Below, one piece after another: positions 2 to 20,207 of a DNA stretch of 22,899 bases. Location of the stretch: positions 1-22,899 of the IMG/VR virus record IMGVR_UViG_3300043313_000386; one strand, 5' to 3'. The notes beneath the pieces were generated by a model. It did no database searches. It was not told the origin of the DNA and worked only from the letters and a program-made list of their open reading frames with translations. Position 1 is the stretch's first letter. Each line of letters starts with the position of its first letter. Source of the stretch: a virus. The position numbers were made by a program, and so were the translations under genes.

Positions 2-112
2 GGCGAGCAGATCGATCATGCCGTGGGCGAAGTGCGAAACGCGCTGGAAAATCTGGAAGACGCGATGGACAAGAACCGAGCAGCGCGTGTGGAGTCCCTC
101 CCCCATGCGTGA
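2..112 (+). CDS. 3' end of an upstream gene (partial)
   Basis: An open frame enters from the left edge and stops with TGA at 110-112, encoding about 36 C-terminal residues. They include a charged helical stretch (EVRNALENLEDAMDK) with leucines spaced like a coiled coil. The stop overlaps the ATG at 105 in an ATGCGTGA junction, the same kind of tight junction found throughout the operon, which is the main reason to call it a real gene end. The function cannot be judged from this fragment. A longer reading of the next gene from ATG 18 would run across this whole tail and is less likely. Confidence 0.6.
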   Translation, partial: GEQIDHAVGEVRNALENLEDAMDKNRAARVESLPHA

Positions 113-1343
113 ACAGACCCTGAACCAACTCTGCGGAGCGATTCACGGCTCGACTGGCGCACGGTGCGAAAAGCCTGTGGAACATCTAGAGAACCATATC
201 GGCCAGTTCCTTCACGGCACTGTCCAGTGGCCGAAAGAGGAGTCCTCACGTCTGCCAACTGATGCCGAGATCAATCGTCTGGAAAAGGCTGCATGGGACG
301 CTGGCGTCGATCAGGCGCTGGTCTATCTCCGCGACGAACGAGACACCCTCACCGCACGGTGCGAGGCGCTGGAGGCTGAAGCCGAAACAGAACGCATCAA
401 GCTTGCGGCCTGCACCACGGCGGCATTTGGTAACACGCCCGACCGAGTTGCGGAACGCCTCGCGCCGGGGCATCCCTACTGGTCGGCGTCCTACGGTGAC
501 GTGTGTGGAGCCGTGGATCGTGAAATGGCCCTTCGTGTGCGGTGCGAAGCGCTGGAGCAGGAAGTCGCGCGGTCGGTTGGCGATGAAGACCACACGTCAG
601 CACTATTGCAATCGGTCCTTCAGATGCTGGGCGTTCCTGCGTTCTCCAAGGACTACTTCACCGAAGATAGGCGCTGGAACTGGACGCCGATTCGTGCGCT
701 CATCGATAAACACCGGGACGAGAAGAAATCGGTTGCGGCACGGTGCGAGGCGCTGCAACTTCGCTTCGATACCGCCAGAACGGCAGTCAATGAGGAACGA
801 GAACTGCGGCAACAGGCTGAAGCACGGTGCGAGGCACTGGAGAAGCAGGCCGCAGAGTTCAAACGCATTGGGCAGGACTTTGAGCGGGATTACCGCAACA
901 CCTTTGAGCAGTCCTGTAAGAATCTGGAACGCGCCGAGAAGGCGGAGAAGCGCTGCGCGTCGTTGGAGCAGGAGCGGGACCAAACGAAGCTCGATCATGT
1001 TCACGCCTGCCAGACCATCGCCCAGATGCACGCCGTGGCCGTGGGCGAAGTCACCGGCCCGAAGCGCGGCGTTGTGGAAGATGTAGCCGACCTCCGTGCC
1101 CGCTGCCAGCACCTAGAGCAGGCCGTGCGAGACATCGTCGCTGCAGACTTCCTTCAAGTTGCGGGCGTCAGGCAACCAATCTGGGTGCGCTGGAACGAAG
1201 CCCTACGCATTGCCAATGCCGCCCTCGCCTCACTCCTCCCCTCCCAGGATGAGACACCCAGAACAGACGAGAATCGGGTATCATTCGCCGCAGGCTACAC
1301 CGCGGCGTTAGATGACGCCCTGAAAGGCAAGACGCATGATTGA
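105..1343 (+). CDS. Coiled-coil protein with repeated RCEALE motif and N-terminal zinc-type motif
   Basis: 412 residues of unrecognised family. The N-terminus has Cys10, Cys21, His27 and His31 in a C-x10-C-x5-H-x3-H arrangement, resembling small zinc-binding motifs common in phage proteins. The rest is largely charged, heptad-like helix in which a hexapeptide close to RCEALE recurs six times, starting at residues 85, 146, 213, 241, 283 and 333. The segment around residues 110-145 and the C-terminus (from about 345) are less repetitive and may be globular. I start at ATG 105 because it overlaps the preceding stop; ATG 18 is in frame but would overlap the previous gene by about 95 bases. It could be an elongated structural, tether or regulatory protein; no function is assigned. 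The 3' end overlaps the next gene (ATGATTGA). Confidence 0.8.
   Translation: MREQTLNQLCGAIHGSTGARCEKPVEHLENHIGQFLHGTVQWPKEESSRLPTDAEINRLEKAAWDAGVDQALVYLRDERDTLTARCEALEAEAETERIKLAACTTAAFGNTPDRVAERLAPGHPYWSASYGDVCGAVDREMALRVRCEALEQEVARSVGDEDHTSALLQSVLQMLGVPAFSKDYFTEDRRWNWTPIRALIDKHRDEKKSVAARCEALQLRFDTARTAVNEERELRQQAEARCEALEKQAAEFKRIGQDFERDYRNTFEQSCKNLERAEKAEKRCASLEQERDQTKLDHVHACQTIAQMHAVAVGEVTGPKRGVVEDVADLRARCQHLEQAVRDIVAADFLQVAGVRQPIWVRWNEALRIANAALASLLPSQDETPRTDENRVSFAAGYTAALDDALKGKTHD
357..1118 (+). repeat. Six dispersed copies of the RCEALE-coding motif
   Basis: Copies lie at 357-374, 540-557, 741-758, 825-842, 951-968 and 1101-1118. The first four are nearly identical in DNA as well as protein, and the last two are diverged (RCASLE, RCQHLE). 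The 11-base string GCACGGTGCGA occurs at 159, 354 (approximately), 738 and 822, once in the zinc-type motif and three times in the coiled coil. Spacings between motifs are 61, 67, 28, 42 and 50 residues. This suggests internal duplication of a coiled-coil unit or recombination between copies. Confidence 0.75.
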
Positions 1344-4736: not shown

Positions 4737-5153
4737 ATGAGCGACTATCAGCGTCTTCCTGACCTCCCGAACGCGGGTTTTCAGACGCCCGTTCAGCGTG
4801 AGCTGTCAGACGCCATGATGTTCCTGATCCGGGGTCTGGAACGTGACCGCTACCTGTTACTCGAGACCGTCATCAAGGGCCAGAAGATCTGGCGGAAGCG
4901 ATTCAAATCGGCGTTTCGTGCGATCAAGGCTGATGACGAGTTCGCGGATGCCGTGTTCGGCTACCTAGTGCTGATGGCTGGCCCGAATCCTGACGAGCAG
5001 AAGGCGCGGCTCGAGTTGATGCACACCCAGCAGTCGGTGACGAGCTGGGATAAGCGGCTGATGACGAAGCTGCGACTCGCGCGGGACCGAAAAGACCTCG
5101 AAATGGACATTCTTCGGGAATCGCTGAAGCCGCGAAAGGTCTATAGCCACTGA
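4737..5153 (+). CDS. Hypothetical protein upstream of portal
   Basis: 138 residues, mostly charged helix with many Arg, Lys, Glu and Leu residues and no transmembrane segment. Residues about 20-60 and 85-125 look like amphipathic helices (RGLERDRYLLLETVIKG; RLARDRKDLEMDILRESL). I do not recognise the family. It follows a 98-base gap with a hairpin, and its TGA overlaps the portal ATG (TGATG at 5151-5155), so its translation is probably tied to that of the portal. A packaging accessory or portal partner would suit the position, but no motif shows it. Confidence 0.8.
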   Translation: MSDYQRLPDLPNAGFQTPVQRELSDAMMFLIRGLERDRYLLLETVIKGQKIWRKRFKSAFRAIKADDEFADAVFGYLVLMAGPNPDEQKARLELMHTQQSVTSWDKRLMTKLRLARDRKDLEMDILRESLKPRKVYSH

Positions 5154-7417
5154 TGGCCGATTCTGTCGCCCTCGCGGTCAAAGACGCTGCGGAACCCCTC
5201 GCCCGTTCGCGAGATGCCGACAACTCGCCTGTCGGCGTCAATCCCATCATTGCCGAAGCTCGTCGCCGCTGGCAGAAATGCCAGGAAGCGGAAGACGCCC
5301 AGCGAAAGAGCATCCTTGAAGCGAAGAAGTTCCGCGCTGGTGACCAGTGGCCGGAGGCCATCAAGATCCAGCGGCAAGGCTCGAGCGCCATTCAGGGTAT
5401 CGCGGCACAGCCTGCGCGACCCTGCCTGACCATAGACCGCCTCTCCCAGCCCATTCGCCAGCTCTCTAATCAGATCAAGCAGGCGGCATTTAGCATCGAC
5501 GTGCTGCCGAACGGCTTCGGCGCGGATCAGGAGACTGCGGAGATCCTGCAGGGCTACCTGCGTCGGGTGCAGAACAACGCGAGGACCGAAGGGCCGATTG
5601 AGTGGGCGGCGGACGGCGCGATTGAGGGCGGCATCGGGTGGTTTCGGATTCGGACGGACTACGTCTACGAATCATGGGACGGCGACCCGATGGACCCTGC
5701 GGCGTATGACCAGGAACTGAAGCTGGACCGCATCACGAACAATCTGACGGTCTACTGCGACCCGTCAGCGGTGAAGCCGACACGCTCAGACGCGCTGTTC
5801 ATGCTGGTCACGGAAGACCTCGACCGCGACGAGTTCTCGAGCCGCTGGCCTGATGCGGACGTTGCCAGCATCGACGACTTCGTGACGACGGGCGATCTCG
5901 CGGATTGGGCGAGTCAGGACACCATCCGTATCGCGGAGTATTGGCGCATCACCTTCACGGACGAGAAGATCGAGGACGGCCAGCAGAGCCGCGTGGTTCG
6001 CCGGCCGAAGGTGGAAGGCTTCAAGATCACCGCGACGGAGATCCTTGAGCAATGGGACTGGCTCGGCTCACGGATTCCGCTGATTCCCATCCTCGGCGAA
6101 GAACTGAACATCGACGGCAGGCCGGTGTTGCGTGGCGTCATCAACGAAGGCATGGACGCCCAGCGGATGGTGAATTACACCTATTCCGGGGCGATGGAGA
6201 TCTTCGCGCTCGCGCCGAAGTCGCCGTTCATTGCGGCCGCGGGCCAGATCGACAACTACCTGGACATGTGGAAGACCGCGAATACGTTCAACTATGCGTA
6301 TTTGCCGTATGACCCCGTCTCGATTGGTGGCGATGTCCTGCCGCCGCCCCAGCGCAACAACGCGGAGCCGCCGATTCAAGCCGCGGTGATGCTGATGCGG
6401 ACCTCGGAAGAGGCGATCAAGGCCTCGACGGGTGTCTACGATCCGGCGTTGGAATACAACAACCCGCGAGAGCATAGCGGGAAGGCCATCCAGAGCCTGC
6501 AGGCCCAGTCGGAGATCACCGCCAGCAACTACCCGATGCACGTGCAGCGGGCGCTGATCTATGCCGGCGAACTGATGGTGGAGATCATCCCCAAGATCAC
6601 CCGTCCAGGTCAGGTCATCCAGATCATGGGCGCCGACGAGGAACCGGAGCAGGTGATGGTCGGCGTGCCGTTCCAGAAGGGGCCGGATGGTCAGCCGCAG
6701 CCAGCCGCGCAGCACCAGCCGGACCTGACCGACTTCTATGACTTCAAGAAGGGCAAGTATGCCGTCACGGTTACTGTCGGCAAAGGATCTGCGACCCGTC
6801 GAGAGGAGGGTGCGGCTGCGCTGGCCGACCTCATCCCGCATCTTCCGCCTGAGATGGCCGCTGTGGCGACTCCTGACTACGTTGAACAGCTATCTTTCCC
6901 TGGTGCCCATAAGATCGCGGAAAAGCTAAAGCGTGCGCTCCCGCCGCAACTCCAGGATCAGCCCGAAGGTGGGCCAGACCCGGAGAAGCAGCAGATGCAG
7001 GGCATGATTCAGCAACTCCAGCAAGCCCTCCAAGGCAAGCAGATGGAGGAGCAGGCGAAGCAGCAGGGCGCACTCCAGAAAGCCCAGCTCGACGCCCAGA
7101 CGTCCCTCCAGCAGACGCAGATGGAGATCCAGAGCCGCGAGCGGATTGCGCTGATTCAAGCCTCGACCACGATGAATGTGGCGCAGGGGAAGATCGACGC
7201 CGAAGATGCGCGGACGTTCGTGGATGCGATGGAGAACCGCGTCGCGGGCTTGCTCGAGCTGCACATGGCGAAGTTGGGCAAGGTGCATGAAGCACTGGCC
7301 CAACAGCAGGATCAGGTGCATGAAGTCGGATTGACGGCGATGCAGCATCAGCACGAAGCGGATCAGGCGGAACGGGCCGCGCAGCAGATGGCCGCTCAGC
7401 CGGACGAGGCGGTATGA
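5153..7417 (+). CDS. Portal protein, P22 type
   Basis: 754 residues, close to the 725 of the P22 portal. Twelve copies would form the ring at one capsid vertex through which DNA is packaged and ejected, and to which terminase and neck proteins dock. The N-terminal half has stretches typical of P22-like portals: FRAGDQWPEAIK near 62-73, the segment PCLTIDRLSQPIRQLSNQI, GGIGWFRIRTDY, and YCDPSAVKPTRSDA. The last 150 residues (from about 607) are a long Gln- and Ala-rich helix (QLQQALQGKQMEEQ; MENRVAGLLELHMAK), matching the helical barrel that P22 portals extend into the capsid. The start overlaps the upstream stop (TGATG), and the stop overlaps the next ATG (ATGA). Confidence 0.93.
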   Translation: MADSVALAVKDAAEPLARSRDADNSPVGVNPIIAEARRRWQKCQEAEDAQRKSILEAKKFRAGDQWPEAIKIQRQGSSAIQGIAAQPARPCLTIDRLSQPIRQLSNQIKQAAFSIDVLPNGFGADQETAEILQGYLRRVQNNARTEGPIEWAADGAIEGGIGWFRIRTDYVYESWDGDPMDPAAYDQELKLDRITNNLTVYCDPSAVKPTRSDALFMLVTEDLDRDEFSSRWPDADVASIDDFVTTGDLADWASQDTIRIAEYWRITFTDEKIEDGQQSRVVRRPKVEGFKITATEILEQWDWLGSRIPLIPILGEELNIDGRPVLRGVINEGMDAQRMVNYTYSGAMEIFALAPKSPFIAAAGQIDNYLDMWKTANTFNYAYLPYDPVSIGGDVLPPPQRNNAEPPIQAAVMLMRTSEEAIKASTGVYDPALEYNNPREHSGKAIQSLQAQSEITASNYPMHVQRALIYAGELMVEIIPKITRPGQVIQIMGADEEPEQVMVGVPFQKGPDGQPQPAAQHQPDLTDFYDFKKGKYAVTVTVGKGSATRREEGAAALADLIPHLPPEMAAVATPDYVEQLSFPGAHKIAEKLKRALPPQLQDQPEGGPDPEKQQMQGMIQQLQQALQGKQMEEQAKQQGALQKAQLDAQTSLQQTQMEIQSRERIALIQASTTMNVAQGKIDAEDARTFVDAMENRVAGLLELHMAKLGKVHEALAQQQDQVHEVGLTAMQHQHEADQAERAAQQMAAQPDEAV

Positions 7418-9616: not shown

Positions 9617-10855
9617 GTGCCCGCTAACACATTTCTCACAAACGACATCATCACGTATGAGGCTCTCGATGTGCTCGAGAACACCTACAACGCGATGATC
9701 CACATCAACAGCGAGTATTCCGACCAGTTCGAGTTCGGCGGCACCGTCCTCGGCCAGACGCTCTCCATCCGCAAACCGCCACGCTATGAAGGTCGTCTCG
9801 GTCAGGCCGCCGTCGTCGAAGCGATCACCGAGACGTTCGTGCCGCTCACGCTCTCGTATCAGCGCGGGGTGGATACGCAGGTCTCCTCGCAGCAGCTCAC
9901 CCTCGACATCGACAACTACCGCAAGCGTGTGCTGGAACCCCAGATCGTGCGGCTGTCGAACCTGATCGACCAGGACGTCTGCAACTTGGCGCAGGGTCTC
10001 AACAACTTCGTGGGCACCCCCGGCACCACGCCGACCACGCTCTCGACGTTCCTGGCGGCCAAGACGAAGCTGGACAACCAGGCGGCTCCGATGGACGGGG
10101 GGCGCTGCATGTTCCTCAATCCGGCGGCCGAGTCGTCCATCGTGGACAACCTGAAGGGACTCTTTCAGGCGGCGAACGAGATCCGCGAACAGTATCTGTC
10201 GGGCATGATGGGACGGTCCATCGGCTTCGACTGGTATATGGATCAGAACATCTACGTGCATACCGTGGGCACGCTGGGTGGGACGCCGACGGTCACGACC
10301 TCGCCCTCGAGCGGGGCGACGAGCATCGTCACGGGATCGTGGACGAGCACGACCCTGAACGCCGGCGATGTGGTCTCGTTCTACTCGGCCTCGGTTCCGG
10401 TGAACAGCGTGAATCCCCAGTCGTATCAGACGACCGGCCAGATCGCGCAATTCGTCGTCACCGCGACCGTCTCGGACTCGACCGGCACCATCACGATTCC
10501 CGTGGCGCCGGCGATGATCTCGAGCGGACAGCTTCAGAACATCACCAACATGCCTCCGGCGAGCGCGGCGGTCTACGTGTTCGACACCGCGGCGGCGAAC
10601 TTCGCGACGATCTCGGCCAAGGCCTCCCCGCAGAATCTCGCAGTTCACAAGGACTTCGGGACGCTCGCGATGGTGGACATGCCGCTCCCCGGTGGAACGG
10701 ACAAGGCGTATCGCGCGGCCTCGCGGAAGTCGGGTAAGTCGATCCGCGTCATTCGCGACTACGTGGCGACCTCAGATCAGTGGATTCAGCGGCTGGACGT
10801 CCTCTATGGCGTGGCCGTGCTGCGGCAGGAACTCGGCTGCAGGGTGGGAGGCTAA
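9617..10855 (+). CDS. Major capsid protein, P22 coat family
   Basis: 412 residues, near the 430 of P22 gp5, and expected to form the icosahedral shell. Typical coat-family stretches are GTVLGQTLSIRKPPRYEGR near 44-62, the helical YRKRVLEPQIVRLSNLIDQD, GGRCMFLNPAAE, and a C-terminal RLDVLYGVAVLRQEL. Residues about 215-320 are Thr, Ser and Gly rich with beta character (TGSWTSTTLNAGDVVSFYSA) and sit where P22 coat carries its insertion domain. The start is GTG 9617, chosen from the strong AGGAG. Unlike its coupled neighbours, this gene has a 117-base leader of its own, as expected for a protein needed in hundreds of copies. Confidence 0.9.
   Translation: MPANTFLTNDIITYEALDVLENTYNAMIHINSEYSDQFEFGGTVLGQTLSIRKPPRYEGRLGQAAVVEAITETFVPLTLSYQRGVDTQVSSQQLTLDIDNYRKRVLEPQIVRLSNLIDQDVCNLAQGLNNFVGTPGTTPTTLSTFLAAKTKLDNQAAPMDGGRCMFLNPAAESSIVDNLKGLFQAANEIREQYLSGMMGRSIGFDWYMDQNIYVHTVGTLGGTPTVTTSPSSGATSIVTGSWTSTTLNAGDVVSFYSASVPVNSVNPQSYQTTGQIAQFVVTATVSDSTGTITIPVAPAMISSGQLQNITNMPPASAAVYVFDTAAANFATISAKASPQNLAVHKDFGTLAMVDMPLPGGTDKAYRAASRKSGKSIRVIRDYVATSDQWIQRLDVLYGVAVLRQELGCRVGG
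10847..10851 (+). promoter_or_regulatory. Ribosome binding site for the gene at 10860
   Basis: GGAGG ends 8 bases before ATG 10860 and overlaps the last codons of the capsid gene. It decides this start over the in-frame start at 10692, which lies inside the capsid gene. Confidence 0.7.
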
Positions 10856-10859
10856 GCGC

Positions 10860-11477
10860 ATGGCTCTGTCAACGACGTATGCATCGGGCGCAGTCAGCGC
10901 CACATCGAACATCGTGGGGGTGAACGCCTTCACGAATCCAGCGGTCTCCGCGGCGGTCTCGCCCAAGACGCTGCTCCGGTTCGCCACGGGCGAGTATTGC
11001 CTCGTCACGGGCGCCATCGGCACGTCCCTCCAGGTCGTGCGAGGCTACAACGGCTCGCAGGCCGTGGCGCACAGCGCGCTGGAAGGCATCCAGTATGGGC
11101 TGACGTCTGACGGCTCCTGGCCGGCGGCGAATGCGACCGTGCAGGTCATCGCGCCGGTTACCAAGACCAACGCGCAGGAAGTCACCCTCACGGGTTCGAC
11201 CGGCACGGATGCGGCGATTGTCACCGCGCCTCCCGGCGCCATCCTGAACTGCTCGGGTGCGAGCGGTGCGGGCGTCAATCTGCCGGTCCCGACGGTGGGG
11301 ATGTCCTACGTGGTAAAGAACTCGTCCAGCGGGACGATGAAGATTTACTGCGTCGGAGGCTCGCTCAATGGGACGACCGGCACCACCGCCGTGAGCATGA
11401 CCACGACAGGCGCGACCGGCGACTTGTTCTGGTGTGCGACGGCTGGGGCATGGCTCGGCGCGCCGACCTCGGTCTAG
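10860..11477 (+). CDS. Putative capsid-associated or decoration protein
   Basis: 205 residues, Gly, Ala, Thr and Val rich, with a beta-strand pattern throughout. Residues about 39-75 carry a motif seen in many phage virion proteins (YCLVTGAIGTSLQVVRGYNG followed by AVAHSALEG). The C-terminal half (ILNCSGASGAGVNLPVPTVG and later repeats of GTTGTT) resembles short beta domains at the ends of phage surface proteins. It follows the capsid gene by four bases with its own strong ribosome site, a common position for abundant decoration proteins. No enzymatic motif is visible. A fibre-like role is the alternative. Confidence 0.65.
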   Translation: MALSTTYASGAVSATSNIVGVNAFTNPAVSAAVSPKTLLRFATGEYCLVTGAIGTSLQVVRGYNGSQAVAHSALEGIQYGLTSDGSWPAANATVQVIAPVTKTNAQEVTLTGSTGTDAAIVTAPPGAILNCSGASGAGVNLPVPTVGMSYVVKNSSSGTMKIYCVGGSLNGTTGTTAVSMTTTGATGDLFWCATAGAWLGAPTSV

Positions 11478-11481
11478 TGCG

Positions 11482-12546
11482 ATGACGACACACCGGGTGC
11501 ATCTGCTGTCCACGCCGAACGTCCAGCCCGTTGCGGCAGACTATTTGGACGTCTTCAGTGGGTTCACCCGGCGTTTCTCTGAACTCTTGACAGAGATGGG
11601 CCACACGGTGTTCCTCTACGGATCAGAGGACACCGACACGCCCTGCCACGAACTGGTCACCTGTATCAGCAAGCAGGATCAGGCGCGGTTCATGGGTGAG
11701 GAGCCATATCACAAGGCGTGGTATGACGGCAGCAATCCCATGTTCGTGCATTTCAATGTGCGCGCGGCGGCTGGGATTCAGGCCCGGAAAGAACAAGGCG
11801 ACGTCATCGCCACGATTGCCGGCACCGCGCAGTTGTTCGTGTCGCAGCAGCATAGCGATCTGACGTTTCTCGAGTATTCGATTGGGTATCGTGGCGTGTG
11901 TGCCCCGAACCGCATCTACCAGAGTCATGCGTGGCGGCATGTCGCGCACGGCTACACAGGGCTGGAATACGGACGGACGACGGACGACGTGATCTATCAC
12001 TGGTTCCATGAGGATGAATTTCCTACGAAACCCGTCGAGGATTACGTGCTGTATGTCGGCAGGTTGACCTCAGTCAAAGGTATCCGCACGGCCTGTCGGG
12101 CAGCGGAAGCGGCGGGGGTTAAGCTGTTCCTGATTGGCGACGGTGACCCGGATCTCGTCACGTATGGCGAGTATCTCGGGCACATGCCGCCGAGTGAGCG
12201 GAACAAGTGGATGGCTGGCGCGACCGCGCTCCTGGCCCCGACCGAATACATCGAACCCTCGGCGTGTGTCTGCACGGAGGCCCAGTTGTGCGGGACACCT
12301 GTTATCGCGTCACCGTGGGGCGGGTTTACGGAATACATCGAGCACAACGCGACGGGGTATCTGTGCAAGTCGCCGCAGGAATTCGTGGACGCGATCAAGA
12401 CCGTGGGCTATCTCGACCGACACTACGTGCGCGCTCGAGCGCGACGACTCTATGGCTGGGAAGCGGGCAGGGACGCCTATACGGCGTATTTTGACCGTGT
12501 GCTGCAGACGCGCCCCGTGGCTGAACCAGCCCTGACGGCGCAGTAA
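11482..12546 (+). CDS. GT-B fold glycosyltransferase (GT4-like), phage-encoded
   Basis: 354 residues. The C-terminal nucleotide-sugar domain has LYVGRLTSVKG with Arg194 and Lys199 at donor phosphate-binding positions, FLIGDGDP, and the E-x7-E motif from Glu258 to Glu266 followed by LCGTPVIASPWGGFTEYIEH, all typical of GT4 enzymes. The N-terminal half (HLLSTPNVQP...GFTRRFSELL...GHTVFLYGSED) fits the acceptor domain of phage-borne relatives as I remember them. It should transfer a sugar from a nucleotide donor, in the cytoplasm. The motifs look intact. ATG 11482 lies five bases after the upstream gene; an in-frame start at 11434 lies inside it. Substrate unknown; virion proteins encoded on both sides are obvious candidates. 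Confidence 0.85.
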   Translation: MTTHRVHLLSTPNVQPVAADYLDVFSGFTRRFSELLTEMGHTVFLYGSEDTDTPCHELVTCISKQDQARFMGEEPYHKAWYDGSNPMFVHFNVRAAAGIQARKEQGDVIATIAGTAQLFVSQQHSDLTFLEYSIGYRGVCAPNRIYQSHAWRHVAHGYTGLEYGRTTDDVIYHWFHEDEFPTKPVEDYVLYVGRLTSVKGIRTACRAAEAAGVKLFLIGDGDPDLVTYGEYLGHMPPSERNKWMAGATALLAPTEYIEPSACVCTEAQLCGTPVIASPWGGFTEYIEHNATGYLCKSPQEFVDAIKTVGYLDRHYVRARARRLYGWEAGRDAYTAYFDRVLQTRPVAEPALTAQ

Positions 12547-13565: not shown

Positions 13566-14309
13566 ATGGCGACGGTGCGCGCGATTTGCGTCGATGCGCT
13601 CCGCGAGATCGGGGTGCTGGGCGAAGACGAGGCCATGACCGCGGCGCAGGGCGCATTTGCCTTGCTGCGCTTTCAAAACCAGATCGATGCATGGGCGGCT
13701 GATCGTCTCACGCTGTCGGTCCAGTCGCGCACCGCGATTACGTGGCCCTCGAGCACCTCGACGCAGACCATCGGGCTGGTGGGCGCGGACATCACCGACC
13801 AGCGGCCCGTCTGGATCAACACGATGACCTACGTCAATCCGGGGTCATCGCCCGCGGTCGAAGTGCAGATGGGTCCGATGGATCAGGACAGCTATGCGCT
13901 GCAGACCATCAAGGAACTGCAGAGCGGGCTTCCGCAGCAGTATTTCTACCAGACCAGCATCGACACGCTGCTCGGCTCGATCTTCATATGGCCGCAGCCG
14001 ACGCAGCAGTTGACGCTCTATCTCTACGCCCCGCAAGCGGTGGGTGTGCCGCCGACCCTCGACAGCATCCTCCTCGGGCCTCCGGGCTACCAGGATGCGT
14101 TCATGTATCAACTCGCGAAGCGGCTCTGTCGGCCCTTTGGTCGTCCGGTGACACCGGACCTGTTGAAGGACGCACAGGAGGCGTGGGCGGTGATGAAGCG
14201 GCCCAACGTCGAACCGGGGTTGCTCGGCGTCGATGCGGCGCTGACCATCGGCAATCAGGCTGGCTACAACATTTTGAGCGACAGTCAATCATCGCCCGGA
14301 GGGCGCTAG
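13566..14309 (+). CDS. P22 gp4-like head-tail adaptor (neck) protein
   Basis: 247 residues. In this family the protein binds beneath the portal ring as a first tail-assembly factor. The opening (ALREIGVLGEDEAMTAAQGA, then LLRFQNQIDAWAADRLTL) is the common signature of gp4-like adaptors, which start with a Leu-rich helix pair and a W-x2-(D/E)R-L motif. The middle is beta-rich (YFYQTSIDTLLGSIFIWP), followed by a helical C-terminus. P22 gp4 is 166 residues; many environmental relatives are longer. It starts immediately after the preceding TAA. The nearby gp10-like gene supports the call. Confidence 0.8.
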   Translation: MATVRAICVDALREIGVLGEDEAMTAAQGAFALLRFQNQIDAWAADRLTLSVQSRTAITWPSSTSTQTIGLVGADITDQRPVWINTMTYVNPGSSPAVEVQMGPMDQDSYALQTIKELQSGLPQQYFYQTSIDTLLGSIFIWPQPTQQLTLYLYAPQAVGVPPTLDSILLGPPGYQDAFMYQLAKRLCRPFGRPVTPDLLKDAQEAWAVMKRPNVEPGLLGVDAALTIGNQAGYNILSDSQSSPGGR

Positions 14310-14318: not shown

Positions 14319-14570
14319 ATGGCACAACCGGCGGTGATCTACAACAAAGGGGTCGCGATTACGAAGTCGGACACGCTCAACATCGTTGGCCCGAAGCCGC
14401 TCACCGATGCGATTTTCGTGGGGGCCACGGGCGTGATGATCGTGGTGTGGCAGGACGATACGACCTCCGCGTTTACCTGTGCGGTCGGAGAGATCGTGCC
14501 GGTGGCGGCGAAGAGGGTGAACAGCGGCTCGACCACGGCTGACCTGATGGTTGCGCTCTATCAGGTCTGA
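14319..14570 (+). CDS. Small virion-associated protein
   Basis: 83 residues with an all-beta pattern. The stretches LTDAIFVGATGVMIVVWQDD and VGEIVPVAAKRVNSGSTTA match, from memory, a common small phage protein encoded beside neck or head genes and probably built into the virion. There is no membrane segment and no enzyme motif. It has its own AGGAG. Its stop lies 4 bases before the next ATG. The exact place in the virion is unknown. Confidence 0.7.
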   Translation: MAQPAVIYNKGVAITKSDTLNIVGPKPLTDAIFVGATGVMIVVWQDDTTSAFTCAVGEIVPVAAKRVNSGSTTADLMVALYQV

Positions 14571-14574
14571 TGGT

Positions 14575-15705
14575 ATGTCGGTCTACCCAGGTTTTATCGG
14601 GCCAACCAATAACCTCGCCAGTCCATCCGTGGACAGCGAGGAGACGCGCAACTGGTTCCTTGAACTGTCGGCGCCGGGAACCGGGAAGGCGCCCGCATGG
14701 CTGGCTCCGGTTCCCGGCCTCGAGCCATTCGTTGTCCTGAACGACGGCCCCGTGCGGGCGTTGTTCTCGCAAGATGGCCGGTGCTTCGCGGTTGGAGCGA
14801 CAGGCTTTTACGAGATCAATTCGACGCATACGGCGTCGCTCCTCGGCACCGTCGCGCTCGACGGACGACCGGCGACGATCTGCTCCAATGGGTCAGCAGG
14901 GCATCAACTGTTCATCACGTCAGGTGGATTTGGCTACACATTCGACCTCATCACGAACCTCCTGACGCCGATCACCGATCCGAACTTCCCAAACCCCTGC
15001 ACGATGGGGTGCTTCATCGACGGGTATTTCCTCGCCTTACAGGGGCAGAGCAACACATTCTTCTGGAGTTCGCTGGAAGACGGGACGACGTGGAGCGGTC
15101 TCGACGTCGCGCAACTCTCGCAGAGTTCCGACTACATCTTGAGCATGTTCCCGGTCTACGGCCAGTTGTGGCTCCTCGGGTCCAAGACGGGCGTCGTCTG
15201 GGCTGACATTGGCGGCTCGAGTATCTTCGCGCCGATTCCCGGTTCGCTCATGCAGGTCGGGACGCGCGCCCCGTTCTCCTTCTGGGTGGGCGATAACGCG
15301 GCCTTCTGGCTCGGTGGCAACGATCAGGGTGACGGGATTGTGTTCCGCGGCACTGGAGTCGGGTCTGCTCCTGCGCGCATCTCCACCCATGCGATTGAAT
15401 ACCGCTTGAGCCAGTCGAACCGGCTCGCGGATACGCTGGGATGGGGCTACCAGGAGAATGGGCACACCTTCTACAGCCTGCTCGTCCCTGACTTGGACAC
15501 GACCTACACCTACGATGCCGCCACGCAGCAGTGGCACTCTCGCGACCTCTGGGATCCCGTCGCACTGGTGACGATTCCCGATGTAGTGCGGTGTCACACG
15601 TTCTGCTTCGGGCAGCATCTCGTCGGAGACCGGGAATCTGGCGCGGTCTACGTGCAGGACTACAACCTCGCGACGACGACGCTCGTCCAGATGGGCGCTG
15701 GGTAA
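14575..15705 (+). CDS. P22 gp10-like packaged-DNA stabilisation protein, lacking the C-terminal module
   Basis: 376 residues. In P22, gp10 closes the portal after packaging. Family features are GFIGPTNNLASPSVDSEETR near the start, LAPVPGLEPF, GPVRALFSQDGRCFAVG, repeated Trp/Gly-rich strands like propeller blades, TYDAATQQWHSRDLWD, and HTFCFGQHLVGDRESG at the end. P22 gp10 has 472 residues, and relatives I remember continue from this point into a RRLRRAP...DGG-x-TW...VFE...DPV module. Here the protein stops at TAA 15703-15705, and the module appears instead at the end of the next two genes. ATG 14575 is chosen over in-frame TTG 14551, which lies inside the previous gene. TAA is followed directly by GTG 15706 in the same frame. 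Confidence 0.8.
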   Translation: MSVYPGFIGPTNNLASPSVDSEETRNWFLELSAPGTGKAPAWLAPVPGLEPFVVLNDGPVRALFSQDGRCFAVGATGFYEINSTHTASLLGTVALDGRPATICSNGSAGHQLFITSGGFGYTFDLITNLLTPITDPNFPNPCTMGCFIDGYFLALQGQSNTFFWSSLEDGTTWSGLDVAQLSQSSDYILSMFPVYGQLWLLGSKTGVVWADIGGSSIFAPIPGSLMQVGTRAPFSFWVGDNAAFWLGGNDQGDGIVFRGTGVGSAPARISTHAIEYRLSQSNRLADTLGWGYQENGHTFYSLLVPDLDTTYTYDAATQQWHSRDLWDPVALVTIPDVVRCHTFCFGQHLVGDRESGAVYVQDYNLATTTLVQMGAG

Positions 15706-17787
15706 GTGGCGACGATCCTCGTCCACGCTGGCGACGATCTGCAAGCCGCAATCGACGCGGCAGTGGCGGGGGATATTCTGGTCTTGGACGCCTCCGCGAC
15801 ATTCACCGGCAATTACACCCTCCCGGTGCATACCGGCGGCGAGATCATCATCAAATCCGCAGGGAGTTTGCCGTCTCCGGGTGTGCGAGTCACCCCCGGC
15901 ACGGCGTCCGCGTTTGCGAAGATCCAGCCCGATACGGGCGGTGGGCCTGCGTTCGCCACGATTCCAGCCTGTCATGACTGGACCCTGCTGGGGTTAGAAC
16001 TCCTCGCGACACCGACCGGCGACAACGATATTCTCGTCCTCGGTGATGGCTCGAGCGCCCAGAACAGTCTGGCTGACGTGCCGTATAACCTTGTCGTAGA
16101 CCGCTGCTACATCCACGGTGATGCGACCTACGGCATGAAACGTGGCATCTCGCTGCAGTCGGCTGAGACGACCATCAAAAACTGCTACATCAGCGACATC
16201 AAGAAGACCGGACAGGACGCGCAAGCGATAGCAGGCTGGAACGGGCCGGGACCGTGGACGATTGACAACTGCTACCTGGAAGCGACGACCGAGAACTTCC
16301 TCGTCGGTGGCGCCACGATCCAGATTCCCGACCTGCTGCCGACCGACATCACGTTCACGAACAACACCGTCACGAAGCTGGAGGCGTGGCGCGGAGCGGG
16401 TTACAACATCAAGAACCTGCTGGAGCTGAAGACGGGTGTCAATGTCCTGATCGACAGCAACACCTTCTCCTACAACTGGGGCGGCGAAGGCCAGAGCGGC
16501 TATGCGCTCGTCTTCACGGTGCGGAATGAAGAAGGTGACAATAACTGGGCAACCATCCAGAACGTCACCTGCACGAACAACACGATCACGCACAGCGGAT
16601 CGCTGTTCAACATCCTCGGCAAAGATGACCGGCCTGTCGCCTCCATCGAGATGAACAATCTCGTCATCCGCGACAATGTCGCCTATGACATCGACGGCGG
16701 AACATGGAACGGAGCGGGGCATTTCGCACAGATTCACAGCGGTAACGCCATCACGCTCGACCACAACACGGTCATCAACAGTGGTGGCGTGTCGATCTAC
16801 TTCGTGGATGCGCCGAATACGAACTTCACGCTGACGAACAACATCTTTTACGACAACGGGCTGGCGATTTTCGACACGTTGGGCAACCTCGGCACGGCGG
16901 CGCTCGATGCCTTCGCCTCGCCGTATTCGATGCTCAAGAACGTCCTGATTCTGGGGGCGTTTGAGTCGAGCTATCCGGCTGATAACTTCTTCCCGGCGAC
17001 CGAAGCCGAAGTCGAGTTCACAGACAGCGCAGCGAACGACTACGAACTGCTGGTGTCCTCGCCGTATCACAACGCCGCGACGGACGGCGACGACATCGGC
17101 GCGCGATTCGGGTCTGCGCCTCCTGTCACGCTCCCAGGTGCGCCAACGACACCCAGCCCTGCGGATGGCGCGATTGATGTCGCGCTCGACACGGACATGA
17201 CGTGGGTGTCGGGCGGCAATACCGACACGTATAACGTGGCGTTCGGGTTCACTATCTCGCCGCCGACTGTCTCGCTGGCTCAAGTCGGCACGACGTATAC
17301 GTTCCCGTCGCTGCTGATTGCAGGCCGCACCTATTACTGGCGCATCACCGCGAACAACGACATCGGATCGACCTCGGGACCGCTGTGGAGCTTTACCACG
17401 CTCGCGGCTGAACCCACCCCGTCGCCGGTCTATCACCTGCGCGATGTGGTCCGCAGACGACTGCGGCGAGCGCCGATTGTCTGGAAGGAAGACAAGGGCA
17501 TCCAGACCCGTGTGCGGGTCAATCTCTTCGCTGTGGATGTCCAACCTGGGGTCGGCACGGCTGGCTCGCCTGACCCTGTGGTCATGGTGCGAGCCTCGCG
17601 AGACGGAGGACGGACATGGGGCACCGAACGTCAACTCGCCGCAGGACGAGTCGGGCGCTACGTCCAGCGGTTGAATGCGTGGCAGTGGGGCAGTGGACGC
17701 CAGTGGGTGTTTGAGATCGCCTGCACCGATCCGGTGCTGTGGAATGTGGTCGGAGCTTATCTGGACGCCGAAGGCGGCATATCGTGA
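15706..17787 (+). CDS. Beta-helix / fibronectin-III surface protein ending in a gp10-type module
   Basis: 693 residues with three parts. Residues about 1-465 are a right-handed beta-helix, seen as repeated Asn-rich turns (FTNNTVTKLEAW, IDSNTFSYN, CTNNTITHSG, LDHNTVINSG, LTNNIFYDNG), a fold common in phage tailspikes and polysaccharide-acting proteins. Residues about 475-570 form a fibronectin-III-like domain (PSPADGAIDVALDTDMTWVS; YYWRITANNDIGS; LWSFTTL). After a Pro-rich linker, residues 575-693 are the module shared with the next gene. A host-surface-binding or depolymerising role is likely, with the module as virion anchor; no catalytic residues can be assigned. GTG 15706 follows the gp10-like TAA with only a weak GGG upstream. 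The start of the next gene overlaps its stop (GTGA). Confidence 0.8.
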   Translation: MATILVHAGDDLQAAIDAAVAGDILVLDASATFTGNYTLPVHTGGEIIIKSAGSLPSPGVRVTPGTASAFAKIQPDTGGGPAFATIPACHDWTLLGLELLATPTGDNDILVLGDGSSAQNSLADVPYNLVVDRCYIHGDATYGMKRGISLQSAETTIKNCYISDIKKTGQDAQAIAGWNGPGPWTIDNCYLEATTENFLVGGATIQIPDLLPTDITFTNNTVTKLEAWRGAGYNIKNLLELKTGVNVLIDSNTFSYNWGGEGQSGYALVFTVRNEEGDNNWATIQNVTCTNNTITHSGSLFNILGKDDRPVASIEMNNLVIRDNVAYDIDGGTWNGAGHFAQIHSGNAITLDHNTVINSGGVSIYFVDAPNTNFTLTNNIFYDNGLAIFDTLGNLGTAALDAFASPYSMLKNVLILGAFESSYPADNFFPATEAEVEFTDSAANDYELLVSSPYHNAATDGDDIGARFGSAPPVTLPGAPTTPSPADGAIDVALDTDMTWVSGGNTDTYNVAFGFTISPPTVSLAQVGTTYTFPSLLIAGRTYYWRITANNDIGSTSGPLWSFTTLAAEPTPSPVYHLRDVVRRRLRRAPIVWKEDKGIQTRVRVNLFAVDVQPGVGTAGSPDPVVMVRASRDGGRTWGTERQLAAGRVGRYVQRLNAWQWGSGRQWVFEIACTDPVLWNVVGAYLDAEGGIS
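17428..17784 (+). repeat. gp10-type C-terminal module, copy A
   Basis: Codes for 119 residues matching copy B at 19050-19406 without gaps: 88 of 119 identical by my count. The core motifs RRLRRAPIVW, LFAVD-x-QPGVGTA, DGG-x-TWG, NAWQWG and VFE-x-ACTDPV are kept in both. Confidence 0.85.
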
Positions 17788-19409
17788 GAGCCAAGGTCGG
17801 CACCTTTCAGATTCCCGCCACGCCAACGGCTATGAAGACCGTCACGGGGGTGGCTGACGCGGATGGCGACATCACGGCGGAATATCTGTTCTTCTTCGGC
17901 GGCTACACCTGGAACGGCCTGAATGCCGTGTCCTACGAGGATGCCTTCTTACATGGCTCGACGCTGTTTGATTACGGCGCGGACTTCATCGGGCTTGGAC
18001 AAGCGACCTCGACGGGCGTGGGTGGTGAGAATACGCCGTTCGCGTTCGCCGTGATCTGCGGCGGCGTCGGTCAGGGTTATTCCCTGATCGACATCCGACC
18101 GCAGTTGTCCTTCGGCGGGGAAAATCAACTCCTCGGGTATGTGTCGGCGGTGAGTGCTGGCACGTTTACGCTGACACTGGATCGGAACTCCCGCGGCAGC
18201 GATTACTACATGTATCTGGCGCTGTCGGATGTCACCATCGACCTTCCCACGTCACCGCCCGATCCGGCCCTCATCAGCAACGGCACGTTCACCGCGAGTG
18301 GGTATCCCGTTGGCGTGATCAACTTCCCCGCCAATACGGGATTCGCGGCGCATGGCACAGGCCAAGCGACGGGTGCGGGTGGTTCATATAACGGCATCGG
18401 CTGGTCGGCTCGCGACAGCAATCAAGGGGCCGCAGTCGGACGCATCGAGGGACAGCATTTCGAGACGCGCGTTGGCGTGACGCTCACGGATCGCTGCGCG
18501 GCGGGATTGGATACATCGGGAGTGCTGCTGACCCCAGCGCCCACCATCACCTGGGATGCGTTGGGGTTTACGGTGACGGGCGCAGCAAGTCCGCTGAACT
18601 ACATCCCGTTTATCTTCAGCGGCACAGACATCGTCGCGCGGGCAGGGTCGGAGGCCCAACCGATTACAACCGGCACCCAAACCATTGACCTCGATTGCGA
18701 GGCCACATGGGTGATCATGGTGGGCGAGGGCGTGGTGGACGGGGCTGGCGTCGGGACGCGCTACGATTTCAGTCTCGGCCTGACGGATGGGATCAGTCAG
18801 ATCAATTTCTGGACCGGCCAAGCCGGGAACGGAGACGGCAGCGGGGCGCGCTGGATCGGGGATGCGGCCCTCCTGCGATTCGGGGCGGCGAACGGTGTCA
18901 GCACGACGTTTCCCAACGTGATGGAGTTTGTCTCCTTGGTCGGCAGCACGTTGACCGTGGACTGGACTGCGGTGGACGGCACCGCGCGGCAATGGCTCTG
19001 GTATGCGATGGGGCCATCCGATGTCCCACCACCACCACCGCCGACCCCGGTCTATCGCACGCGGGAAGTGGTCCGACGACGGCTCCGTCGCGCTCCGATT
19101 GTCTGGAGCGAGAAGGGCGGGCTGCAGACACGGGTCCGCATCAACCTCTTTGCGGTGGATATGCAACCGGGCGTCGGGACGGCTGACACGCCTGACCCGC
19201 TGGTGATGATTCGGTGCTCGAAAGACGGCGGATTTACGTGGGGGAATGAGCGACGTCTGACGGCTGGGCGCGTGGGGGAGTTTTTCGAGCGCATCAACGC
19301 ATGGCAATGGGGACAAGGCCGGGACTGGGTATTCGAGGTTGCCTGCACTGATCCTGTGACTTGGAATTTATTGGGTGCATACCTCGATGCGGAAGGCGGC
19401 GAGAGCTAG
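17784..19409 (+). CDS. Triplicated beta-domain surface protein ending in a gp10-type module
   Basis: 541 residues from GTG 17784, which overlaps the previous stop; an in-frame start at 17739 lies inside the previous gene. Residues about 5-149, 166-280 and 297-410 look like three diverged copies of one beta-rich domain, each with a hydrophobic strand near the start, a Gly-rich middle and a closing strand pair (GTFTLTLDRNS...YLALSD; LGFTVTGAASP...FIFSG; STLTVDWTAVD...WYAMG). The first copy resembles a domain I remember from phage fibre proteins. A run of six prolines then leads to residues 423-541, the second copy of the gp10-type module. It is probably a virion surface or host-binding protein paired with the beta-helix protein before it. 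Confidence 0.75.
   Translation: MRAKVGTFQIPATPTAMKTVTGVADADGDITAEYLFFFGGYTWNGLNAVSYEDAFLHGSTLFDYGADFIGLGQATSTGVGGENTPFAFAVICGGVGQGYSLIDIRPQLSFGGENQLLGYVSAVSAGTFTLTLDRNSRGSDYYMYLALSDVTIDLPTSPPDPALISNGTFTASGYPVGVINFPANTGFAAHGTGQATGAGGSYNGIGWSARDSNQGAAVGRIEGQHFETRVGVTLTDRCAAGLDTSGVLLTPAPTITWDALGFTVTGAASPLNYIPFIFSGTDIVARAGSEAQPITTGTQTIDLDCEATWVIMVGEGVVDGAGVGTRYDFSLGLTDGISQINFWTGQAGNGDGSGARWIGDAALLRFGAANGVSTTFPNVMEFVSLVGSTLTVDWTAVDGTARQWLWYAMGPSDVPPPPPPTPVYRTREVVRRRLRRAPIVWSEKGGLQTRVRINLFAVDMQPGVGTADTPDPLVMIRCSKDGGFTWGNERRLTAGRVGEFFERINAWQWGQGRDWVFEVACTDPVTWNLLGAYLDAEGGES
17796..19013 (+). repeat. Three diverged tandem beta domains within the 17784 gene
   Basis: Approximate units are 17796-18230, 18279-18623 and 18672-19013. 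The similarity is by pattern (starting GTF or GTQT strand, Gly-rich centre, closing aromatic strand) and not by long identity, so boundaries are rough. Confidence 0.5.
19050..19406 (+). repeat. gp10-type C-terminal module, copy B
   Basis: Second copy of the 119-residue module at 17428-17784. It follows a proline linker, as copy A does (PTPSPVY in A, PPTPVY in B). The 31 differences are spread evenly and many are conservative (V/I, K/R, L/V), so both copies look functional. Confidence 0.85.
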
Positions 19410-20207
19410 ATGCCGACGAATTACCCGCCACTGAACAACCCACCGCTGACCAAGGACGGTAATTGGACCGTCCCGTGGGCGATGTATTTCGCCTCGTTGT
19501 TTGCTGAAGGTGGTGGCGTCGCCCCGACTGACGCGGAATACCTCCTCGGCGTGGCGAACGGGTTACTCCCTGATGCGCGCGTCGTCACGAACAGCAACAG
19601 CAACGTCTGGAACCTCGCCGTCGCAGGGCAGGCGTCCGTCTCTCGAGCGGCCCTCTCGGGTGACATCACGGCTCCATTTGATGGCAACGTCACGACGCTC
19701 TCCACGACGGGGGTGGCGGCTGGCACCTACGGAGACGCCACACACGTCGGGCAGTTCACCGTGGACGCCAAGGGGCGGCTGTCCTTTGCGGCGGATGTCG
19801 CGATCAGTTTCCCGGCTGGTGGTATCACGCAACTCACCGGGGATGTCACGGCAGGACCGGGGTCTGGTTCGCAAGTCGCCACACTCGCCAATAGCGGCGT
19901 CACGGCTGGGAGCTATACCAACACCGACCTGACGGTCGATGCGAAAGGCCGCATCACGGCGGCGTCGAACGGCTCGAGCGGTAGTAGCGCCACGGTCATT
20001 GGTCTGGATCGGTCTGTGGGGGATGGCGCGACGACGGACTTTTACCTGCCTGATCTCGCGGAATACGTGGTGAACGTGAGCGACAACGGTGCGATAGTAG
20101 ACCCGACGCTCTACAGTTTGGGCAGCGCCTTTGACCTGGTCTCGTTCACGACGGCCCCGACTGCGGCCCATGTGTTGACGTTTGAATACGTGATGGCGAC
20201 TGCCTAA
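19410..20207 (+). CDS. Tail fibre protein with repeated DAKGR motifs
   Basis: 265 residues. The N-terminus (YPPLNNPPLTKDGNWTVPWA) is a common start of phage fibre-type proteins and may be the virion attachment segment. Two copies of a short fibre repeat follow, GTYGDATHVGQFTVDAKGRL and GSYTNTDLTVDAKGRITAAS, each after a SGD(I/V)T or TGDVT stretch. The C-terminal 75 residues are a small beta domain (DRSVGDGATTDFYLPDLAEY). It would form part of a trimeric fibre. It abuts the previous stop (TAG then ATG) and ends in a TAATG overlap with the second fibre gene, suggesting matched production. Confidence 0.8.
   Translation: MPTNYPPLNNPPLTKDGNWTVPWAMYFASLFAEGGGVAPTDAEYLLGVANGLLPDARVVTNSNSNVWNLAVAGQASVSRAALSGDITAPFDGNVTTLSTTGVAAGTYGDATHVGQFTVDAKGRLSFAADVAISFPAGGITQLTGDVTAGPGSGSQVATLANSGVTAGSYTNTDLTVDAKGRITAASNGSSGSSATVIGLDRSVGDGATTDFYLPDLAEYVVNVSDNGAIVDPTLYSLGSAFDLVSFTTAPTAAHVLTFEYVMATA

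Follow-up and report, generated by a model that had tools for sequence, protein, structure and literature searches.

In short-tailed phages, gp10 closes off the DNA channel and ranks with the best-conserved proteins of the tail. In its family, the nozzle is a hexamer that sits beneath the adaptor ring and is plugged by a needle. The closest described nozzles, those of P22 (gp10), Sf6 (gp8), Pan3 and Pam1, share the family, fold and gene position of the protein considered here (PHROG 578, "head closure Hc3", the P22 gp10 family; profile of 486 columns), and each is one polypeptide of 442-472 residues. T7 gp12, reported to have no significant sequence similarity to P22 gp10, likewise has a propeller and a platform domain that touches the adaptor; its platform is made of the C-terminal domain and of strands from the first 45 residues (PMC6702177). 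In SU10, the platform is also built from N- and C-terminal parts and touches the adaptor (PMC9509320). Here, we analysed 22,899 nt of a short-tailed phage (virus record IMGVR_UViG_3300043313_000386, positions 1 to 22,899, hereafter the window), in which the gp10 gene ends early and the missing part stands twice downstream.

The window contains a P22-type gene cluster, with P22_portal (5153-7417), P22_CoatProtein (9617-10855) and a gp4-like head-tail adaptor (13566-14309; PHROG 12985, E 8e-25; PHROG 637, head-tail adaptor Ad3, E 5e-6), to which the nozzle platform would be expected to bind. The adaptor gene, like every part of the gp10 locus described below, is on the plus strand and is followed by gp10; it is likewise found upstream of gp10 in contigs L002, L004 and L009. 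The gp10 gene (14575-15705), whose product P0001 we call gp10N, sits syntenically between adaptor and ejection genes and encodes 376 residues, with a TAA stop at 15703-15705. It comprises the N-terminal strands and the beta-propeller and matches columns 13-362 of PHROG 578 (E 6e-62); according to this profile, gp10N ends where the C-terminal domain should begin. A PHROG profile search gave no second gp10 match in the window record, and promoter and terminator counts showed no excess over chance. Two neighbouring genes deserve mention. A glycosyltransferase gene (11434-12546; PF00534, PHROG 3408) lies between the coat protein and adaptor genes. Just before gp10, an 83-residue ORF (14319-14570) matches PHROG 12296 (tail fibre protein) and is 59% identical to the C-terminus of a 694-residue protein of L003 (5451-7535) that has a weak GDSL/SGNH-like match; this is another instance of a small C-terminal module that occurs both behind a large front part and on its own.

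The C-terminal (platform) domain of gp10 is present at 17428-17787 (module 1) and at 19050-19409 (module 2), stop codons included. Both copies match columns 382-473 of PHROG 578, with E-values of 1e-11 and 5e-11, and carry an Asp-box (SRDGGRTW and SKDGGFTW, respectively). The profile is covered by the two kinds of chain together (13-362 and 382-473) and by neither alone, which makes the split point objective. A sequence-only reading of this DNA had claimed that the C-terminal module of gp10 is missing from P0001 and occurs twice downstream; the profile columns confirm this, and the positions it gave for the gp10-like protein and both modules are correct on translation. Its figure of 88 identical residues between the two 119-residue copies (17428-17784 and 19050-19406) was reproduced (89/120 with the stop). 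The copies agree at 94/120, 103/120 and 48/120 of codon positions 1, 2 and 3, and their dN/dS is 0.13. The detached module retains the full domain, including the N-terminal RRRLRRAP stretch. Matches of the module profile to sialidases in the PDB are due to the shared Asp-box and do not indicate a sialidase. In both modules, GAAGGCGG lies within the codons of the conserved DAEGG end (17763-17787 and 19385-19412), a few bases upstream of the following start codon, and may serve there as ribosome-binding site for the next gene.

Each module is preceded by a cassette. At 15703-15708, the TAA stop of gp10 is directly followed by the in-frame GTG start of cassette protein 1, and the junction is the same in L001 and L002; it differs in L003, where gp10 ends in TGA and the ORF that follows lies in a different frame. 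Cassette 1 (15706-17427) consists of a right-handed beta-helix (~16255-16848), a putative Ig/FnIII-like domain and a proline-rich linker. Of the beta-helix/FnIII architecture first proposed, the beta-helix stands (PF13229, 37.6 bits against a cut-off of 25.9), whereas FnIII was not recognised by Pfam, the last ~100 residues giving Big_5 at E 0.05, below cut-off. Cassette protein 2 is read in a different frame from a start of its own, which overlaps the stop of module 1 in a GTGA read directly in the sequence (17784-17787); this arrangement points to translational coupling. Cassette 2 (17784-19049) is an all-beta, adhesin-like, fast-evolving region, 32-38% identical to its counterparts in L001 and L002, with a proline-rich linker (PPPPPPTP) before the module. 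In the comparison with typical receptor-binding folds such as the beta-helix it gave no match, and its profile found nothing in the cassettes of the N-terminal-split phages described below. We claim no fold for it, since AF2 of cassette protein 2 with four homologues gave a mean pLDDT of 37.6. The triplication that had been proposed for this region is seen as marginal profile matches only, at E 2e-4 between domains 1 and 3 (global mode) and E 0.005 between domains 1 and 2.

The split was found in four contigs, the window, L001, L002 and L003, and is therefore not an assembly error. L001 and L002 share the window's order of three ORFs and its two cassettes, their gp10N being 94% and their cassette 1 87-91% identical to those of the window. 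L003 has a gp10N of 61% identity, a single cassette (31%, related to cassette 2) and a single module. In the gp10 tree, the four contigs form one clade (support 100/100) that is nested among fused gp10s and has the fused pair L046/L052 as sister (96/92). This nesting supports the insertion of a cassette inside a gp10 gene, as the sequence-only reading had supposed. The seven detached modules likewise group together in the module tree (100/99), and the module 1 copies cluster with one another. A single split would have been followed either by duplication in the window lineage or by loss of one cassette (cassette 1) in L003; the tandem duplication advanced earlier fits the one-cassette L003.

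Within the two-cassette trio (window, L001, L002), gp10N has a dN/dS of 0.04-0.09 (0.04-0.05 for the window against L001 and L002) and cassette 1 one of 0.09-0.14; the values are 0.04-0.06 in module 1 and 0.04-0.12 in module 2. By these ratios, purifying selection acts strongly on both parts of gp10. Cassette 2, 32-45% identical in the trio, has a dN/dS of 0.36-0.52, which is near saturation and is used only for its contrast with the other parts. At the DNA level, the window and L001 are 83% identical through gp10N, cassette 1 and module 1, and 79% from module 2 onward, with no blastn match from ~17820 to 19028. Nucleotide identity here follows the pattern expected when a cassette has been exchanged between conserved flanks. 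Between the window and L001/L002, a conserved module 2 (86-92%) is thus joined to a variable cassette 2 (32-38%), an architecture like that of tailspikes and adhesins. The beta-helix, the linkers and the divergence suggest that the cassettes bind receptors, and the module would be their virion anchor.

We then placed this locus among its relatives, using 251 distinct gp10 loci (the best 80 loci per scan of viral contigs and prokaryote genomes, duplicates removed). The N part and the module form a single ORF in 225/251 distinct loci among the matches listed, prophages included. Hence, intact homologues do not end near residue 376; had they done so, this would have spoken against the sequence-only reading. 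The fused gp10 that this reading had proposed to look for in related phages is indeed found. Among GenBank phage records, 39 have a match to the N part and 31 to the module; in the annotated regions opened, the two are one gene, the module directly behind the N part, with fused gp10 in isolates including PBR31, P26218 and VvAW1. In the phage isolates examined, the module is the gp10 C-terminus and was not found in unrelated fibres; the second outcome named as counting against the reading, a module common in such fibres and never at a gp10 end, is therefore not what was seen. A first module-profile scan of genome contigs had found no relative. The other 26/251 listed loci are splits, broken ORFs, contig edges, masked sequence, weak relatives and one truncated gene. 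Not counted as splits were L187 and L199 (masked stretches), L215 and L219 (a stop within an otherwise giant ORF), L234 (overlapping frames without insert), L174, L205 and L213 (contig edges) and, likewise, L237, L242 and L104. Overall, the C-terminal domain is kept somewhere in almost every gp10 relative with usable flanks; the exception is the truncated gene, L138, which stops inside an insert and whose missing end was not found on the fragment.

Gp10 is also opened at other places. At site 1, eight contigs (L041, L043, L045, L047, L055, L078, L114, L120) carry gp10 residues 1 to ~55 at the N-terminus of a separate upstream ORF, followed by a beta-rich, adhesin-like extension (~300-540 residues for this ORF; DUF11 in L047 and L055). 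PHROG 578 recognises the 55-residue piece in 5/5 of these ORFs tested. The rest of gp10 restarts at an ATG, with an ATGA stop/start overlap in the six junctions read. Six of these contigs are in the tree, where they form one clade (100/100) on the sister branch to the fused L009/L037 (99/95), apart from the window clade. At site 3, a loop of the C-terminal domain, inserts of 40-212 residues occur in many fused gp10s, and ten Gluconacetobacter prophages (L214, L216, L217, L220, L221, L224, L225, L228, L230, L232) have giant one-ORF gp10s of ~1200-1280 residues with about 700-730 residues inserted in the C-terminal domain; in L215 and L219, a giant ORF of this type is interrupted by a stop. Site 3 is split in L170:5731-7919 and L223:5923-9080, where the ORF ends after a long insert and the last 74-80 gp10 residues form a small coupled ORF (stop/start overlaps TAATG and TGATG). 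Among the loci listed, the window clade alone is broken between propeller and C-terminal domain (site 2), and alone has a duplicated piece. Recurrent breaks of this kind support a scheme in which a cassette enters gp10 and the piece behind it persists as a chain of its own. In addition, the propeller itself contains an in-frame insert of ~70-160 residues in L244:5998-7983 and L202:5986-7866, at N-profile column ~120-180; this further region of insertion can be compared with the nozzle domains of SU10. Finally, the last 67 of the 595 columns of PHROG 19101 correspond to the same gp10 module end, while its front 510 columns, unlike the cassettes here, match the GTA TIM-barrel protein PF13547 (found on L334:1501-3135 with E 2e-156). 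This family, known only via its profile, is perhaps a GTA TIM-barrel/gp10-end chimera and another carrier of a detached module.

Because the gp10N stop and the cassette 1 start are adjacent and in frame, the two parts can be modelled as one read-through chain of 1070 residues, obtained by translating the window sequence itself with Gln at the TAA. The AF2 alignment held 34 sequences. pLDDT was ~90 for gp10N (residues 50-360; lower for residues 1-40), ~54-73 for the module core, and below 50 for the first 50 residues of the module and most of the cassette. The superposition on P22 gp10 that the sequence-only reading had called for (8eap_D, VIA-align) covers 441/471 residues with an rmsd of 2.4 and a Z of 36.4, model residues 2..1066 aligning on 2..472. 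Fits to the nozzles of Pan3 (9vyg_M, 428/445 residues, rmsd 2.2, Z 37.2), Sf6 (gp8, 7sg7_S, Z 33.8) and SU10 (7z4b, Z 24.6, model 2..1070 on 2..1004) agree with it. Since gp10N has only 376 residues, at least 65 of those aligned to 8eap_D lie outside it; as the aligned range ends in the module, the model has the module where gp10 carries its C-terminal domain. Given that fused homologues were in the alignment and that gp10N and module were covalently linked through the read stop, this fit is consistency, not proof. Going by the platform architecture of T7 and SU10, the module probably corresponds to the C-terminal half of the platform domain that binds the adaptor, which gives the virion-docking role first suggested for it a more precise form.

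We therefore think it likely that the detached module completes the platform of each nozzle subunit in trans and carries an adhesin with it, two adhesins using the same sockets and one cassette being exchangeable. A P22-type gp10 gene would have been opened between propeller and C-terminal platform domain when a host-recognition cassette was inserted. The phage would make a truncated gp10, with N-terminal strands and propeller, and two adhesins each ending in the missing domain, all encoded in ORFs that adjoin (TAA then GTG) or overlap (GTGA). The missing domain would join the truncated gp10 in trans in a presumed hexamer and rebuild the platform under the adaptor ring, locking the adhesin between propeller and adaptor; completion of the nozzle and mounting of the receptor-binding arms would then be one step. 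With two paralogous, 74%-identical modules, the six sockets could be shared by both adhesins, and recombination in the conserved borders that flank the cassette would permit its exchange.

In many phages, tailspikes have docking domains of their own that hold them on the nozzle (PMC13243795, PMC12692247), and the module could be a mere fibre docking tag outside the nozzle fold, gp10N working without a C-terminal domain and the adhesins binding elsewhere on the tail. In the AF2 model, gp10N is indeed predicted with high confidence while the module is not tightly constrained. However, both parts are strongly conserved by selection, almost all gp10 relatives keep the domain somewhere (not L138), and retention of the full domain with its RRRLRRAP stretch is not expected of a detached tag; we regard this possibility as unlikely. 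The in-frame ORF directly after the TAA in the window, L001 and L002 raises another one, that the stop is read through, or the parts otherwise joined, in a fraction of gp10, which would then be a single chain with internal cassette 1, free gp10N remaining the majority. Such a chain can be modelled as a nozzle with the cassette looped out, and the one-piece Gluconacetobacter proteins carry a ~700-residue cassette within the C-terminal domain. Yet L003 has a TGA and a change of frame, cassette protein 2 has a frame and start of its own, the splits at sites 1 and 3 use overlapping stop and start codons and hence yield separate chains, and TAA followed by G is to our knowledge no leaky stop context, which makes this improbable. 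That gp10N, truncated relative to its family, is a decaying remnant and that another protein forms the nozzle is very improbable, given its 94% protein identity and dN/dS of 0.04-0.05 against L001 and L002, its synteny, and the lack of any other gp10 match in the record.

Completion in trans leads to a wider proposal, which we put forward tentatively: a two-chain nozzle with six sockets filled by either adhesin, virions carrying mixed sets, and the opening of gp10 at one of three sites, each a domain boundary or a loop, as a recurrent route of adhesin gain and exchange in short-tailed phages. If true, gp10, broken at three places that each lie beside an adhesin-like insert, would be a scaffold for host-range evolution and not only a plug. 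The split protein would covalently join receptor binding to the ring that has to open before the DNA can leave, and its defined parts would offer a way to study how adsorption signals ejection. A split gp10 may also explain PHROG 19101, to which no function is assigned, and the very large "gp10" proteins of prophages.

No description of a split nozzle was found in the literature searched, subscription journals lying mostly outside its reach. Compared with the P22-type nozzles, the locus described here has two chains instead of one, adhesins on the second part, and a duplication of that part. The SU10 nozzle resembles it in having extra domains within the nozzle chain, a platform made of the N- and C-terminal ends, and fibres on the nozzle, but its inserts lie between propeller blades 2 and 3 of an unsplit chain and its fibres are separate trimeric proteins held by a short-fibre dock loop (PMC9509320). 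In T7 gp12, the fibre-dock domain is located at the propeller-platform junction, the very place of the cassette here; however, gp12 is a single chain and the fibre protein gp17 is separate (PMC6702177). Podovirus tailspikes (P22 gp9, Pam1, Klebsiella phages) likewise place an exchangeable receptor-binding part on a conserved anchor. In these tailspikes the nozzle- or adaptor-binding domain is N-terminal, whereas here the anchor is C-terminal and homologous to part of the nozzle itself.
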